Origin: Cryomorphaceae bacterium
GTDB lineage: Bacteria > Bacteroidota > Bacteroidia > Flavobacteriales_D > SKUL01
Length of the DNA: 61,740 bases
Direction: 5' to 3'
NCBI GenBank assembly: GCA_007695365.1
Contig: REDV01000066.1
Span: forward strand, 1 to 61,740
A model generated the notes under the pieces. It was not told the origin of the DNA. It saw nothing but the letters and a program-made list of their open reading frames with translations, and ran no database searches. Positions 34,634 through 39,792 of this stretch are shown here, one piece after another. How positions within the stretch are numbered: position 1 is the stretch's first letter; the number at the start of each line of letters is the position of its first letter. A program made the position numbers and the translations under genes.

Positions 34634-36055
34634 TTAAAACCCTCGCCCTGAAAGCTGCCTGATTTCTGCGTAGCGAGTTATTTGCTGCGCTTTTACTTCG
34701 AGCAATACGTTTTGGCCGGTGATCAATGAAGTTTCGCGAGCGTTTACAAGAAAAAGACTGCTTTCGCCCATGCTGAACAATTCACGCTCTCCTTCGAGCA
34801 AAGCCTGAAGGTAATTCACGTTTTGGTCAAAAAACTGCACCTGATCATTGAGGTTGCTTAATTCAACCAAACCGGCATTCACTCTGGCTTCAAGCTCAGC
34901 GCGGGTTTCGAGAAAGTCAAGATCCACGCGCTCCATATCTACACGGGCCATCCCTACTCTTCCCCGAGCATCGCGCACAAACAGCGGAAATCTTAGGGAA
35001 GCTCCCACGGTATAATTCTCCCGAAAAGTGAGCCTATCCTGAAAGAAATCTGTTTGGGGGTTTTCAAGTACGTTTTGCGACAAGAAATTGTACTTGAGTT
35101 GAATGGTAGGACGCAGGTACTCGGCTGCCAGGCGGCGGGTAATGTTGATATGATCGCGTTGTGCCCGAATCATGCGCAACCGCGGATGCTCCAACTGAAC
35201 CTGAAATTCATCCGGAGTCCATTCAGGCATCATTTTTTGGCTCCAATCAGGCCGCACCTCCGGCGACAGGAAGGCCATATTTCCATCTTCGGTCCAAAGG
35301 TAAATATTGGCAATTTGCACCGCACGAGCCCATTGTGTTTGGGCTTCGCGGAGGGCAAAATAGCGGTTGAGTACCTGGGTGTAGGCTTCAACAGTGTCGA
35401 TAGCCGGAAACTCACCCCACTTAAAACTTTGTCGTACAAACTCATAACGGTCATTGGCCAGTTTTACCGCTTCCTCGGCTACTTTTAACTTCTGATCTGT
35501 GAGCCACCAGTTAAAATACGCACGGGTGGCTTCGCCATACAGTTGGTTCAGCAAGTCATCTCTCTGGGCATCGCTTTGTTCCTGTGCTATTTGTGCCTGT
35601 CTGAATGCGGCACGGCGGTTATCCATCAACAATCCCGCGCCAAGATCTACAGAGAGACCTGCATGGAGCAGTCCTCCGGCTGGCATGTTAGCTTCGGGAT
35701 TCAGGAACTGCCCGTCTGTAGATTCATATCCGCCATGAAATTTCACTCCCATCCAGGTAGGAATCTCCACTCCTGCCTGGCGGTATTGGTAGTAAAACTT
35801 ATCGTCGAACTGTTTCGCACCAAAATCACCATAGATAAGAGGGTCAAAACCTCCCCTTGCAGAACGCAACTGCATATCTGCCCGCTCAACCACCAGTCCG
35901 GCGCTAATGGCCACAGGGTGATTCATCATTACAATTTGCAGATAATCGCTGTAAGGCAAAACACGGCCCGATGCTGTATCGTTGGCCGTTTGCTGCGTTT
36001 GGCCGGAAATGGATTGGGCCAACAGCAAGAGCAATATCAGGCAGATGTTTTTCAC
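34634..36055 (-). CDS. TolC-family outer membrane efflux protein
   Basis: The 473-residue protein starts with GTG 36055, giving a signal peptide (MKNICLILLLLLAQSISGQ) and a GTGA overlap with the gene upstream; a longer frame to 36145 is an extension into that gene. Two long alpha-helical, Gln/Glu/Leu-rich repeats with the TolC-like pattern are visible (RQAQIAQEQSDAQRDDLLNQ; NAGLVELSNLNDQVQF), flanking beta strands such as IQLKYNFLSQ and VGASLRFPLF. It should form the trimeric outer-membrane exit duct for the HlyD-like and ABC-like proteins encoded just upstream. Confidence 0.9.
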   Translation of the reverse strand: MKNICLILLLLLAQSISGQTQQTANDTASGRVLPYSDYLQIVMMNHPVAISAGLVVERADMQLRSARGGFDPLIYGDFGAKQFDDKFYYQYRQAGVEIPTWMGVKFHGGYESTDGQFLNPEANMPAGGLLHAGLSVDLGAGLLMDNRRAAFRQAQIAQEQSDAQRDDLLNQLYGEATRAYFNWWLTDQKLKVAEEAVKLANDRYEFVRQSFKWGEFPAIDTVEAYTQVLNRYFALREAQTQWARAVQIANIYLWTEDGNMAFLSPEVRPDWSQKMMPEWTPDEFQVQLEHPRLRMIRAQRDHINITRRLAAEYLRPTIQLKYNFLSQNVLENPQTDFFQDRLTFRENYTVGASLRFPLFVRDARGRVGMARVDMERVDLDFLETRAELEARVNAGLVELSNLNDQVQFFDQNVNYLQALLEGERELFSMGESSLFLVNARETSLITGQNVLLEVKAQQITRYAEIRQLSGRGF

Positions 36056-37422
36056 TTTGTAGAGCTCCCGGTATTTAGAGATACTTCTCTTGCCTCGTCC
36101 AGTTGACGGTAGTAATCGGGCGGGAAACCATTGAGCTGTCGCCAAATCTCATACCACAGCGGAACATCTTTCAACAGCAGAATGCCGTCGGCACCGGAGC
36201 CCACGCGCAACTCAAAAGGCCACTGGTAATCATCGGGGTCGGGCACCACCAGTACGCGGTACTTTCCGTTGGGTGAAATGAAGTTGTCTATGGCAAGAAT
36301 TTTTCCTCCAAATGTTCCGTTACTCAGACGCGGCCACCCGGAGAAAACGATGGCAGGCCAACCGTCAAAAATCACACGCACCTTGTTTCCGGGTCGCAAC
36401 AGGGGAAAATCAACGGGCGTTACGTACATTTCGGTGGCAAGGTCATAGCGCTCAGGCATGATGCTGACTATACGGGTACCAGCGGCAATGTTCTCACCCA
36501 AACCAACCGAAATAGCCTGTGTAACATAGCCGCTTTGGGGAGCGGTTACAAAATAATTATCCCGACGAACCATGATGTTGGATAGCTGGTTCTCCATTTT
36601 TGCAATATCGCCTTGTGCACCGAAGAATGAAGAGAGGGCAGCGTTCCGGTCAGAGCGTGCTTTGCTCAGTTTTTCATCAAACTCATTCTGCACCGCCTCC
36701 AATTCAATTCGTGCATTCTCCAACTCATTCTGGCTGCTTTCATAGCGGTTCTCAAGACTTACAAGTTTTGCCCTGGTTTCTTGTAGCGTGATTCGGCGCG
36801 TTTCGAGGTCTGTTAATGATTTGAGGCCTTTTTCAAACAGCTCTTCCATACGCTCCAGTCGTTGCTGCGCAATGGCGTAATCAATTTTTCCGGCTTCAAC
36901 GTCCATACTGTCTGCTTCTACCTGAAGCTCACTTTGCACGAAACGGTTTTGGGCCTGGTCCAGTTTGTTTCTAAGGCTTTTAGTAAGGGCCTCGATCTGG
37001 GCTTCGAGTGCCTCGGATTTTTCAAGATAATTCACGGCAGCGCCTTCTTTCGCACTAATCTGGCGCTGCGTACGGTCAATAATTTCCGGATCGAAAAAGG
37101 CATCCATTACTTCATCAATTCGAACAATGGTATCGCCCGCCATTACAAAGTCTCCTTCACGCACATACCATTTTGCAATTCGGCCCGGAATCCGGTTTTG
37201 CACGGAGTGTGGACGCTGGTCGGGGTAAAGCGTAGTAAGCTTACCGGCAACGCGCACGTTTTGCGTCCAGGGAACGAATGAAAATGCAATCATGCAAAGC
37301 AGGCTGATGGTGAGTATGCGAATTCGGCGAACAGGTTTACCGTCGTCCGACACCTTTTTTAAGCTCGCATACTCGTCCCAGTATTCCTTGCGCTCTACGC
37401 GGTTATCCGAGAGATTCAGCAT
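36052..37422 (-). CDS. HlyD-family membrane fusion protein
   Basis: The 456-residue protein starts at ATG 37422 (MLNLSDNRVERKEYWDEY), overlapping the ABC gene by 20 bases; an ATG at 37467 is possible. It has a cytosolic N-terminus, one membrane helix (ILTISLLCMIAFSFVPW), a biotinyl-lipoyl-like half-motif (GRIAKWYVREGDFVMAGDTI), a long coiled-coil hairpin (about 150-310) and a C-terminal beta-barrel (VGLGENIAAGTRIVSI, GNKVRVIFDGWPAIVF). It would bridge the inner-membrane transporter and TolC in the periplasm, as in type I secretion. Confidence 0.9.
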   Translation of the reverse strand: MLNLSDNRVERKEYWDEYASLKKVSDDGKPVRRIRILTISLLCMIAFSFVPWTQNVRVAGKLTTLYPDQRPHSVQNRIPGRIAKWYVREGDFVMAGDTIVRIDEVMDAFFDPEIIDRTQRQISAKEGAAVNYLEKSEALEAQIEALTKSLRNKLDQAQNRFVQSELQVEADSMDVEAGKIDYAIAQQRLERMEELFEKGLKSLTDLETRRITLQETRAKLVSLENRYESSQNELENARIELEAVQNEFDEKLSKARSDRNAALSSFFGAQGDIAKMENQLSNIMVRRDNYFVTAPQSGYVTQAISVGLGENIAAGTRIVSIMPERYDLATEMYVTPVDFPLLRPGNKVRVIFDGWPAIVFSGWPRLSNGTFGGKILAIDNFISPNGKYRVLVVPDPDDYQWPFELRVGSGADGILLLKDVPLWYEIWRQLNGFPPDYYRQLDEAREVSLNTGSSTK

Positions 37423-39121
37423 ACGGCGATTGTTTAAACTGTTCGTAATTCCCTTCAAATGCCACATTACCCCGAACCATAAAGATCACCTTATCTGCTC
37501 GCTTCATAAACTCATCATCTGAGGTAGCAGCAAGCACCGTGCAGGGATGCGAGAATACGTGATCATATAATTTTTTGCGTTCTTCCTTCTTGAGAAAATC
37601 CACTTCCAGATCGAGCAGCAACATACGTGGATTGCCCATGATTGAACGCGCAAGAATGATTTTTTTGGCCACTGTACCGGGAAGTTTAATGCCTCCTGGA
37701 AAAAGCTCGGTATCCAAACCATTGGGCAACAGCGTTACCCTGTCGTCGAGTCCAAGGTGCGAAATGGCTTCTAGAATCTGGTCGTCCGAAATGTCAGGGT
37801 CGCCCATGGTAAGGTTTTCACGAAGACTACCCTTGAAAATATGTTCCTGCCAAATATTATCTCCCACCTCACATCGCAATCTGTCGAGCCTCAATGTACT
37901 TAATGATAGACCATTATACGAAATAAGGCCTTCATAATCTTCATAAAAACCCATCAGTAGTTGCATCAGGGTGCTTTTACCGCTTCCCACAGTACCGAGG
38001 AGCACTACCTTCTGCCCAGACCCAACCCGCAATGATAAATGGTTAATCACAAGATCGCGTGTGGATGGATAGCGAAACCTGAGGTTTTCAATCACTATGC
38101 TCAATCCAAACTGATCGGCCGGAAAAACGGGGTATGTATTGTTTTCCTCCTCAAGCGGTAAATCGGTGAGTGCACCGAGCTTCTCAATAGATGTAAGGGT
38201 GTCATACACTGTTTCCAGCCCAACGATTATTTTTTCGATAGAATTCATTATCAGAATGATAATAATCTCTGCCGCAACAAACTGTCCAATACTTATTTCA
38301 TTCTGAATTAGAAGCAGACTACCTATGATCAACAGCGCCACCACCACAATCACCTTAAAGGCTACCATAGCCTTGTATTGCAAAATCAGAATATTGAAGT
38401 GCCGCACCCTAAAATCAAGATAGCCCATCACCAGTTTGTCTACTCTAATCAAAGGCAGCCTGGTGTTTCCGGCAAGCTTAAATGTACCCATGGTACGGGC
38501 AAGTTCTTCCAGCCAATGCGCTACCTGGTATTTATGGGTGGATTCATTGAGTGAGGTTTCTACACCCTGCGGACCTGTAAACTTGAAAATCAAATAAATC
38601 AACACTACAACCCCGAAAGAGAAAAACACAAAAACAGGGTGATAAATGGAAATCAGAATCAAACCGAAAATAATCTGCAATGCAGCCGTTGGATAGTCAA
38701 CCAGCAATTTGGATAACCCCTTTTGCAGCGTTACGGTGTCAAAAAACTGGTTCACCATTTCAGGCGCGTATCGGTTTTGAATGGCTCCCAGCTTTATTCG
38801 TGGAATGCGCACCGCAAGCTCAAAAGAGGATTTTGTAAAAATGCGCTGCTGAAGGCGCTCGGTCATTTTCATTTGGGCAATCTGTATGATTCCCGAAAGA
38901 ATCAAACCAACCATAACGATGATGATGAGTATAACCCACGAGGAGCTTACCCTGCCACCCATGATATAGTTAATGATGGCCTGAATACCCAGGGGCAATG
39001 TCAGAATAATGATACCATTAAGCATGGCATAGAACAAAATCAGGTAGATGATGCGGCTCTCCGTGATGAGCAAACGCTGCATCCGGATGAGAGCCCGCCT
39101 GGCCTTGTTTACCTGCTCCAT
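37403..39121 (-). CDS. ABC exporter-like protein with degenerate nucleotide-binding domain
   Basis: The 572-residue protein has an N-terminal six-helix ABC exporter membrane domain (about 20-315) and a C-terminal nucleotide-binding domain. Walker A is intact (GTVGSGKST, about 374-382) and a Q-loop Gln exists (NIWQEHIF). The signature LSGGQ is replaced by LPGTV (about 480), the catalytic Glu after Walker B is Leu (MLLLDLEVD, about 501), there is no SALD D-loop, and the switch His is Ser (AATSDDEF, about 534). ATP binding looks possible, hydrolysis doubtful. No C39 peptidase domain. It lies between tetR and hlyD with overlaps on both sides. Confidence 0.85.
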   Translation of the reverse strand: MEQVNKARRALIRMQRLLITESRIIYLILFYAMLNGIIILTLPLGIQAIINYIMGGRVSSSWVILIIIVMVGLILSGIIQIAQMKMTERLQQRIFTKSSFELAVRIPRIKLGAIQNRYAPEMVNQFFDTVTLQKGLSKLLVDYPTAALQIIFGLILISIYHPVFVFFSFGVVVLIYLIFKFTGPQGVETSLNESTHKYQVAHWLEELARTMGTFKLAGNTRLPLIRVDKLVMGYLDFRVRHFNILILQYKAMVAFKVIVVVALLIIGSLLLIQNEISIGQFVAAEIIIILIMNSIEKIIVGLETVYDTLTSIEKLGALTDLPLEEENNTYPVFPADQFGLSIVIENLRFRYPSTRDLVINHLSLRVGSGQKVVLLGTVGSGKSTLMQLLMGFYEDYEGLISYNGLSLSTLRLDRLRCEVGDNIWQEHIFKGSLRENLTMGDPDISDDQILEAISHLGLDDRVTLLPNGLDTELFPGGIKLPGTVAKKIILARSIMGNPRMLLLDLEVDFLKKEERKKLYDHVFSHPCTVLAATSDDEFMKRADKVIFMVRGNVAFEGNYEQFKQSPYAESLG

Positions 39122-39792
39122 GGCTTGATAGTGTTAAAAATCATATCAGTATAAAACTCAAACATGTTTCCCGGGTGAGCTTTCGCATCACTCAGAGAGG
39201 GTAAATGTGCATGAAAAAACCGTTGATCAAGATGAGATTGCAACAAAGTAGATGACAGTGTTCTTGGATAGGGATACCCGGGTGCAACCTCACTGATCAT
39301 TTCGCTGATTCGGCCGGCAACCTGCTTCAATCCAACAAAGAAACCTTCCTTGTTCTCGTCATCAACCTGCTTTGTAAGATAGGCCTTTGGAGATTCAGCA
39401 ACCACCACCCGCATGAGGAGATCTTCGTCAAAAACCTGGTTGATACTGATGCGAGAGGGAGCTGTGATAATGTTAATCGCACGCTTAAGGCGCTCTGCAG
39501 CATCGTTGATATTTACTGTGCCAAAAGCAAGTTGATACTCCAGCCACCCCCAATACCAGGACATGTAGTACAGTAATAGCTTGTGCTTATTCTCAAAGTA
39601 CCTGTATACAGCGCTTTCGGTAGTACCTATGCGCGCAGCAAGCTTTCTGAATGTGAATTGCTCAAGGCCCAATTCATCAATCATTAGAAGAGAGGTTGTA
39701 AGAATCTGCTCACCCAACTCGGAGCTCAGCGGATCCTTTACATATACTTTGGGGTGTACGGCAATCCTGACGTGGCTTAATTGATTTGGCAT
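39109..39792 (-). CDS. TetR/AcrR-family transcriptional regulator
   Basis: The 227-residue protein has a helix-turn-helix of the TetR type at about 45-75 (QFTFRKLAARIGTTESAVYRYFENK). A helical ligand-binding C-terminal domain follows. The last 13 bases overlap the ABC gene start, so the regulator is first in the operon tetR-ABC-HlyD-TolC and probably controls it, including itself. A -7 box (39825-39832) and an adjoining imperfect palindrome (39811-39825) fit autoregulation. Confidence 0.9.
   Translation of the reverse strand: MPNQLSHVRIAVHPKVYVKDPLSSELGEQILTTSLLMIDELGLEQFTFRKLAARIGTTESAVYRYFENKHKLLLYYMSWYWGWLEYQLAFGTVNINDAAERLKRAINIITAPSRISINQVFDEDLLMRVVVAESPKAYLTKQVDDENKEGFFVGLKQVAGRISEMISEVAPGYPYPRTLSSTLLQSHLDQRFFHAHLPSLSDAKAHPGNMFEFYTDMIFNTIKPWSR

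Follow-up and report, generated by a model that had tools for sequence, protein, structure and literature searches.

A conserved Bacteroidota family of HlyD/TolC-linked ABC exporters with a degenerate or deleted nucleotide-binding domain is likely to work without hydrolyzing ATP

The window analyzed here (i.e., the whole 61,740-nucleotide stretch of contig REDV01000066.1 from a Cryomorphaceae bacterium) carries a tetR-ABC-hlyD-tolC operon on its reverse strand (Table 1). The reading frame of the ABC gene is clean and overlaps both neighboring genes, as the first-pass annotation of this DNA had stated; the overlap with hlyD is 20 bp when the latter is read from the ATG at 37422 and 65 bp when its longest ORF is taken. 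The ABC, HlyD, and TolC genes stand together, as in a type I secretion system. A second ABC exporter gene was looked for within the operon and none was found, and the nearest paralogue of the ABC protein in the window genome is only 21% identical to it. Promoter and terminator scans gave results no better than chance. Among the 60 regions fetched from relatives, hlyD and tolC lie downstream of the ABC gene almost everywhere, and tetR lies upstream in many.

Table 1. Positions of the operon genes and of the ABC protein features in the window
Feature	Coordinates	Strand	Basis or remark
tetR, first gene of the operon, 13-bp overlap with the ABC gene	39109..39792	-	Pfam TetR_N
Degenerate ABC half-exporter (TMD + NBD), 572 aa	37403..39121	-	Pfam ABC_membrane 5.7e-09, ABC_tran 1e-16
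Transmembrane domain (TMD), residues 13-326	38144..39085	-	Family TMD profile; six long helices in model; retained by all relatives
Coupling-helix-2 region (presumed), residues 206-222 (R209, F214, K215)	38456..38506	-	Conserved with NBD, diverged in TMD-only relatives
TM6 helix, residues 278-319, near-invariant E285, E296-K297, D307	38165..38290	-	Alignment; structure model
Degenerate nucleotide-binding domain (NBD), residues 340-560	37442..38104	-	
Walker A GTVGSGKST (376-384), intact	37970..37996	-	Sequence and clade alignment
Signature position, LPGTV instead of LSGGQ (context KLPGTVAKK)	37670..37684	-	Sequence and alignment
Walker B LLLDL, Asp504 kept, Leu505 for the catalytic Glu	37607..37621	-	Sequence and alignment
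D-loop position, DFLK instead of SALD	37589..37600	-	Sequence and alignment
Switch-loop position, Ser534 instead of His	37520..37522	-	Sequence and alignment
hlyD, periplasmic adaptor, start at 37422 inferred	36052..37422	-	Adjoins the ABC gene in nearly all relatives
tolC, outer membrane factor, read from an inferred GTG start at 36055 (36145 for the longest ORF)	34634..36055	-	OEP 1.4e-28

The window ABC protein scores above the Pfam cut-off for ABC_membrane and has the membrane fold of an ABC exporter. Its NBD retains the Walker A motif but, unlike that of an ATP-hydrolyzing type IV exporter, has no LSGGQ signature, no catalytic Glu in Walker B, and no switch His. These losses and that of the D-loop, together with the intact Walker A, had been listed in the first-pass annotation, and all of them were borne out by the sequence; its proposal that a homodimer would not hydrolyze ATP is a sensible one given the motif loss.

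Of 60 related genomes, 38 encode a homologue at E <1e-50, as do 76 of 296 genomes across the phylum Bacteroidota. We compared the motif columns of 73 members of a degenerate clade, to which the window protein belongs, with those of 11 catalytic cousins. The Walker A Lys is present in 93% of the clade versus 100% of the cousins, the Walker B Asp in 10% versus 100%, the Walker B Glu in 5% versus 100%, and the second signature Gly in 18% versus 91%, whereas the switch His occurs in none of the 73 clade members and in 82% of the cousins. In most clade members the Walker B pair D-E is replaced by E-D, the commonest pair, and the window protein has D-L. At least six window-like members (L037, L072, L090, L091, L109, and L110) have lost Walker A as well, and the NBD scaffold residues G376, K382, N436, R492, and P498 are still conserved in the clade. 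Since the same motifs are degenerate in all 73 aligned members and the dN/dS of the NBD is below 0.1 in the pairs with measurable dS, the degeneracy goes beyond chance, and both an isolated mutation and a pseudogene could be ruled out.

The first-pass annotation had proposed such an alignment, with degeneracy conserved across genera as the outcome in its favor, and we observed this conservation across both genera and families. It had also held that homologues with the same neighbors and with a normal LSGGQ, Glu, and His would count against its reading. Most of the 11 catalytic cousins do share the hlyD/tolC neighbors, and the cousins keep Glu and, in 82%, His, but they are distant relatives outside the degenerate clade, within which all 73 members are degenerate. 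In one protein of the catalytic-cousin group (L103:5399-7597), Walker B reads IIIDSAF without the Glu and the switch His is gone too, apparently through another independent loss. An apparently split gene in genome G050 (L087) was set aside because the break seems to be a stretch of N in the assembled sequence.

The two halves of these proteins evolve differently. In the degenerate clade, mean identity is 54% for the TMD and 31% for the NBD, and the TMD is the more conserved half in 2628 of 2628 pairs. For ordinary exporters of related genomes the corresponding values are 23% and 45%, with the NBD more conserved in 99.7% of 297 pairs; the catalytic cousins are intermediate (TMD 49%, NBD 40%). 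The dN/dS of the degenerate NBD, taken from the closer pairs, is 0.06-0.09 where measurable, i.e., the domain is under purifying selection. In the closest pair, non-synonymous change in the NBD is ~2-fold that in the TMD. The earlier view that the gene is maintained rather than decaying is upheld by these values (NBD dN/dS <0.1 where dS is measurable) and by the clade-wide conservation of the degeneracy. Because the degenerate NBD is under purifying selection, it is evidently kept in most lineages for something besides ordinary hydrolysis, most simply nucleotide binding or structure.

Some relatives, absent from the first-pass annotation, have no NBD at all. As judged by open-frame length, 58 genomes from families f21, f20, f14, and f76 encode this TMD-only form, G365 and G375 in two copies each. 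These proteins match ABC_membrane alone in Pfam, and their C-terminus corresponds to the point where the window protein has its linker (TDLPLE). At each of the 24 loci checked, the hlyD start lies between -35 and +57 bp from the TMD-only stop codon, which leaves no room for an NBD; frameshifts and truncated assemblies were ruled out as the source of these ORFs, given that hlyD follows immediately 3' in each locus. A search of 4 TMD-only genomes with a family NBD profile revealed no family NBD encoded in trans: the best NBD in them scored ~160 bits and is fused within an ordinary exporter, and stand-alone NBDs scored <90 bits, whereas in two control genomes the true family NBD reached 363 and 316 bits. 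Close pairs of TMD-only proteins show dN/dS of 0.02-0.08, indicating strong purifying selection. With these relatives, the issue is less how ATP might regulate the exporter than how transport proceeds with no ATPase. One genome (G417; L136 and L207) holds a TMD-only copy alongside a full-length degenerate copy, so that both forms can be compared in a single natural strain.

With the aim of ordering these losses, we built trees by quick searches from proteins sampled by similarity to the window protein, with SH-aLRT as the only support measure. In the tree based on the TMD only, the degenerate and TMD-only proteins form one clade (SH-aLRT 100) with the catalytic cousins outside it, and the TMD-only proteins form a single clade inside the degenerate one (SH-aLRT 99-100). 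Most catalytic cousins have an N-terminal extension that most members of the degenerate clade lack; the TMD-only clade is surrounded by members with a dead NBD that do have this extension (e.g., L092, L093, L113, L128, and L188-L196), and in several of these the Mg-binding Ser/Thr of Walker A is replaced by N, H, or D. Because dead-NBD forms surround the TMD-only clade and Walker A has been lost in at least six members, catalysis was lost before the domain. The best explanation for these sequences is that ATP catalysis was lost in the ancestor of the clade and that the NBD was later deleted once.

The TM6 residues E285, E296-K297, and D307 are nearly invariant across the clade, TMD-only forms included, in a helix that is clearly hydrophobic on average. 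In canonical exporters of related genomes, E285 and E296-K297 were not found at the same columns. The catalytic cousins do have the TM6 charges, and both these charges and the TMD core are equally conserved there, so the charges predate the loss of catalysis, and we rejected them as a mark specific to the NBD-less state. What does set the TMD-only forms apart is coupling region 2, where they alone have lost R209 and F214 and changed K215 to R; of 25 canonical exporters, 24 have K at the K215 column. We take residues 206-222 to be coupling helix 2 from general knowledge of type IV exporters, in which the second coupling region touches the NBD. Coupling region 1 is conserved in the TMD-only forms. 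An AlphaFold2 model of the window protein, built with seven sequences, has six long helices (mean pLDDT 74, pTM 0.44), and a Foldseek search with it returned TM287/288 as the best match and PCAT1 and HlyB among the nearest structures. At this moderate confidence, the model supports the fold only.

Given these data, we consider it reasonably likely that the family is an ATPase-dead, type-I-secretion-like tripartite exporter that operates without ATP hydrolysis of its own; that the family hydrolyzes no ATP is, from its motifs, very likely. A homodimer of the TMD would work by alternating access, or as a gated conduit, with the HlyD adaptor and the TolC channel completing the tripartite exporter and TetR presumably controlling expression of the operon. 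Since ATP catalysis appears to have been lost in the clade ancestor and the NBD deleted later, transport is probably driven by an ion or substrate gradient rather than by the protein's own ATPase. The driving force would most likely be a gradient of protons or another ion sensed by the TM6 charges, the alternative being the substrate gradient itself; coupling to ions through these charges has, we estimate, slightly less than an even chance of being right. Catalytic cousins share the charges, so these alone are no proof of it. The conserved Walker A and the purifying selection on the NBD imply that the domain still does something in most members, and where it remains, bound nucleotide may act as a regulator or dimer clamp and not as fuel. 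In addition, a cytoplasmic partner is possible, because coupling helix 1 is conserved in the TMD-only forms.

The first-pass annotation had also raised an ATP-gated or regulatory channel, and the strongest competitor is of this kind, a facilitator in which ATP binding gates the conduit and the substrate runs downhill with no coupling to ions, the NBD-less lineage being either constitutive or gated by HlyD. It would fit the 93% retention of the Walker A Lys in degenerate NBDs and their low dN/dS, and a review on degenerate sites describes a TAP D-loop mutant that turns into a nucleotide-gated facilitator (PMC7756269). We nevertheless regard it as rather unlikely, since at least six members are without Walker A and another clade is without any NBD, yet the TMD, HlyD, and TolC have been kept. 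The membrane domain might instead transport nothing and hold HlyD and TolC in position, as a structural anchor or receptor; the TMD-only proteins are still genetically tied to both. However, conservation of the TM6 charges and of the TMD core matches that in the catalytic cousins, which suggests that the translocation path has been kept, and we rate this the least probable of the alternatives.

Two further readings, which we judge about equally improbable and only marginally ahead of the anchor, would keep ATP hydrolysis in play. The first-pass annotation had suggested a partnership with an active ABC subunit from another locus; TM287/288 and TAP are heterodimers of this type. In known pairs, the degenerate subunit does lose the Walker B Glu and the switch His, as this family has, and the structure model's best match, TM287/288, would be consistent with such a pair. 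In known heterodimers, though, the losses are complementary and one site is complete, whereas here the signature and the catalytic residues are gone from the same chain, so that a canonical partner would still leave both composite sites incomplete. The lack of a second ABC gene in the operon and the distance of the nearest paralogue also count against this suggestion, and no composite site of any kind could arise from a TMD-only subunit. Alternatively, the NBD might still hydrolyze ATP through an unconventional site, with the TMD-only clade as a special case. The E-D pair found in most members makes slow or unconventional hydrolysis conceivable, and the conserved Walker A and scaffold residues would accord with it; against it stand the loss of the signature glycines and switch His throughout the clade, the D-L pair of the window protein, and an NBD that is the less conserved half in all pairs and changes faster than the TMD in the closest one.

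The nearest parallel to a gradient-driven exporter of this kind is SbmA/BacA (SLiPT). SbmA is related to ABC exporters but has no NBD and is driven by protons, the SLiPT group has been proposed to derive from a full-length exporter through NBD loss, and YddA, an ATP-driven relative of SbmA, already has part of the glutamate ladder (PMC13316013). The family described here resembles SLiPT in its NBD-less members with an ABC-exporter-type membrane domain, and the TM6 charges of the catalytic cousins recall the account of the YddA glutamates, acidic residues partly present in ATP-driven relatives (PMC13316013). It differs in that SLiPT proteins have eight helices and no coupling helices and SbmA imports peptides (PMC13316013), as against six predicted long helices, a coupling region 1 conserved in TMD-only relatives (in which region 2 has diverged), and a tripartite operon here; HlyD/TolC partners are not described in that account. 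The window protein has no match to the SLiPT Pfam model, matching ABC_membrane and ABC_tran only, and it retains the NBD that SLiPT proteins (and its own TMD-only relatives) lack. On sequence grounds, the family is not a SLiPT member, and its origin is probably separate from that of SbmA/BacA. We entertain, a little more tentatively than ion coupling itself, a Bacteroidota-wide conversion from ATP- to ion-driven transport as a second natural case independent of SbmA/BacA, with living intermediates that would be catalytic, ATP-binding but dead, devoid of Walker A, and devoid of the NBD.

Type I secretion and bacteriocin exporters (of the HlyB, LssB, and PCAT1 type) are similar in fold, in hlyD/tolC neighbors, and in providing the best NCBIfam and high Foldseek matches, but they have the catalytic motifs that are gone in this family; the window protein scores 187.3 bits against the LssB model TIGR03375, far below its curated cut-off of 693.1. 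Exporters with one degenerate site (TM287/288, TmrAB, TAP, CFTR, and SUR) likewise have a folded NBD that is missing the Walker B Glu and the switch His; there a partner completes one site, whereas in this family one chain, encoded alone, has lost all the motifs. The accessible part of the review on degenerate sites covers exporters with one such site, and no homodimer with both sites dead was found in it (PMC7756269). MsbA without its NBD still transports ethidium with a pH gradient, and LmrA-MD and MsbA-MD both correspond to a TMD without an NBD for which transport with a pH gradient has been reported (PMC4979069); these are laboratory constructs, as opposed to the natural, conserved deletion under selection described here.

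ABC transporters are defined by their ATPase, yet in this large, conserved family the ATPase has decayed and finally disappeared, with the membrane half and its HlyD-TolC conduit left in place. The long-standing question of whether ABC exporter membrane domains can act as secondary transporters may now be addressed with natural proteins besides truncated constructs, and the annotation "ABC transporter ATP-binding protein" may mislead about the energy source of these genes. A search of the open-licence literature found no published description of this exporter family, which is weak evidence of absence.

Related genes also occur in plasmid records. A Riemerella anatipestifer plasmid record (L209:3953-8307) contains an ABC-hlyD-tolC set; its NBD is degenerate, although the annotation names an ATP-binding protein. 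Plasmids of Novosphingobium, Sphingobium, and Sphingopyxis (L210-L214) carry related exporter genes whose NBD has neither Walker A nor Walker B, and hlyD- and tolC-like genes lie downstream of the exporter gene in L210 and L211. Because L210-L214 fall outside the Bacteroidota clade on a very long branch, the Sphingomonadales exporters probably represent a further inactivation, separate from that in Bacteroidota. In the Sphingobium plasmid pHAL16 (L211:812-3364) the exporter operon lies directly 3' of a DUF2309 gene, which is not so in L210. IS3-family transposase genes are annotated directly 3' of the related exporter gene on two of the Sphingomonadales plasmids (L213:5137-6500 and L214:4843-6206), and in L214 the NBD reading frame is cut short at the transposase gene.
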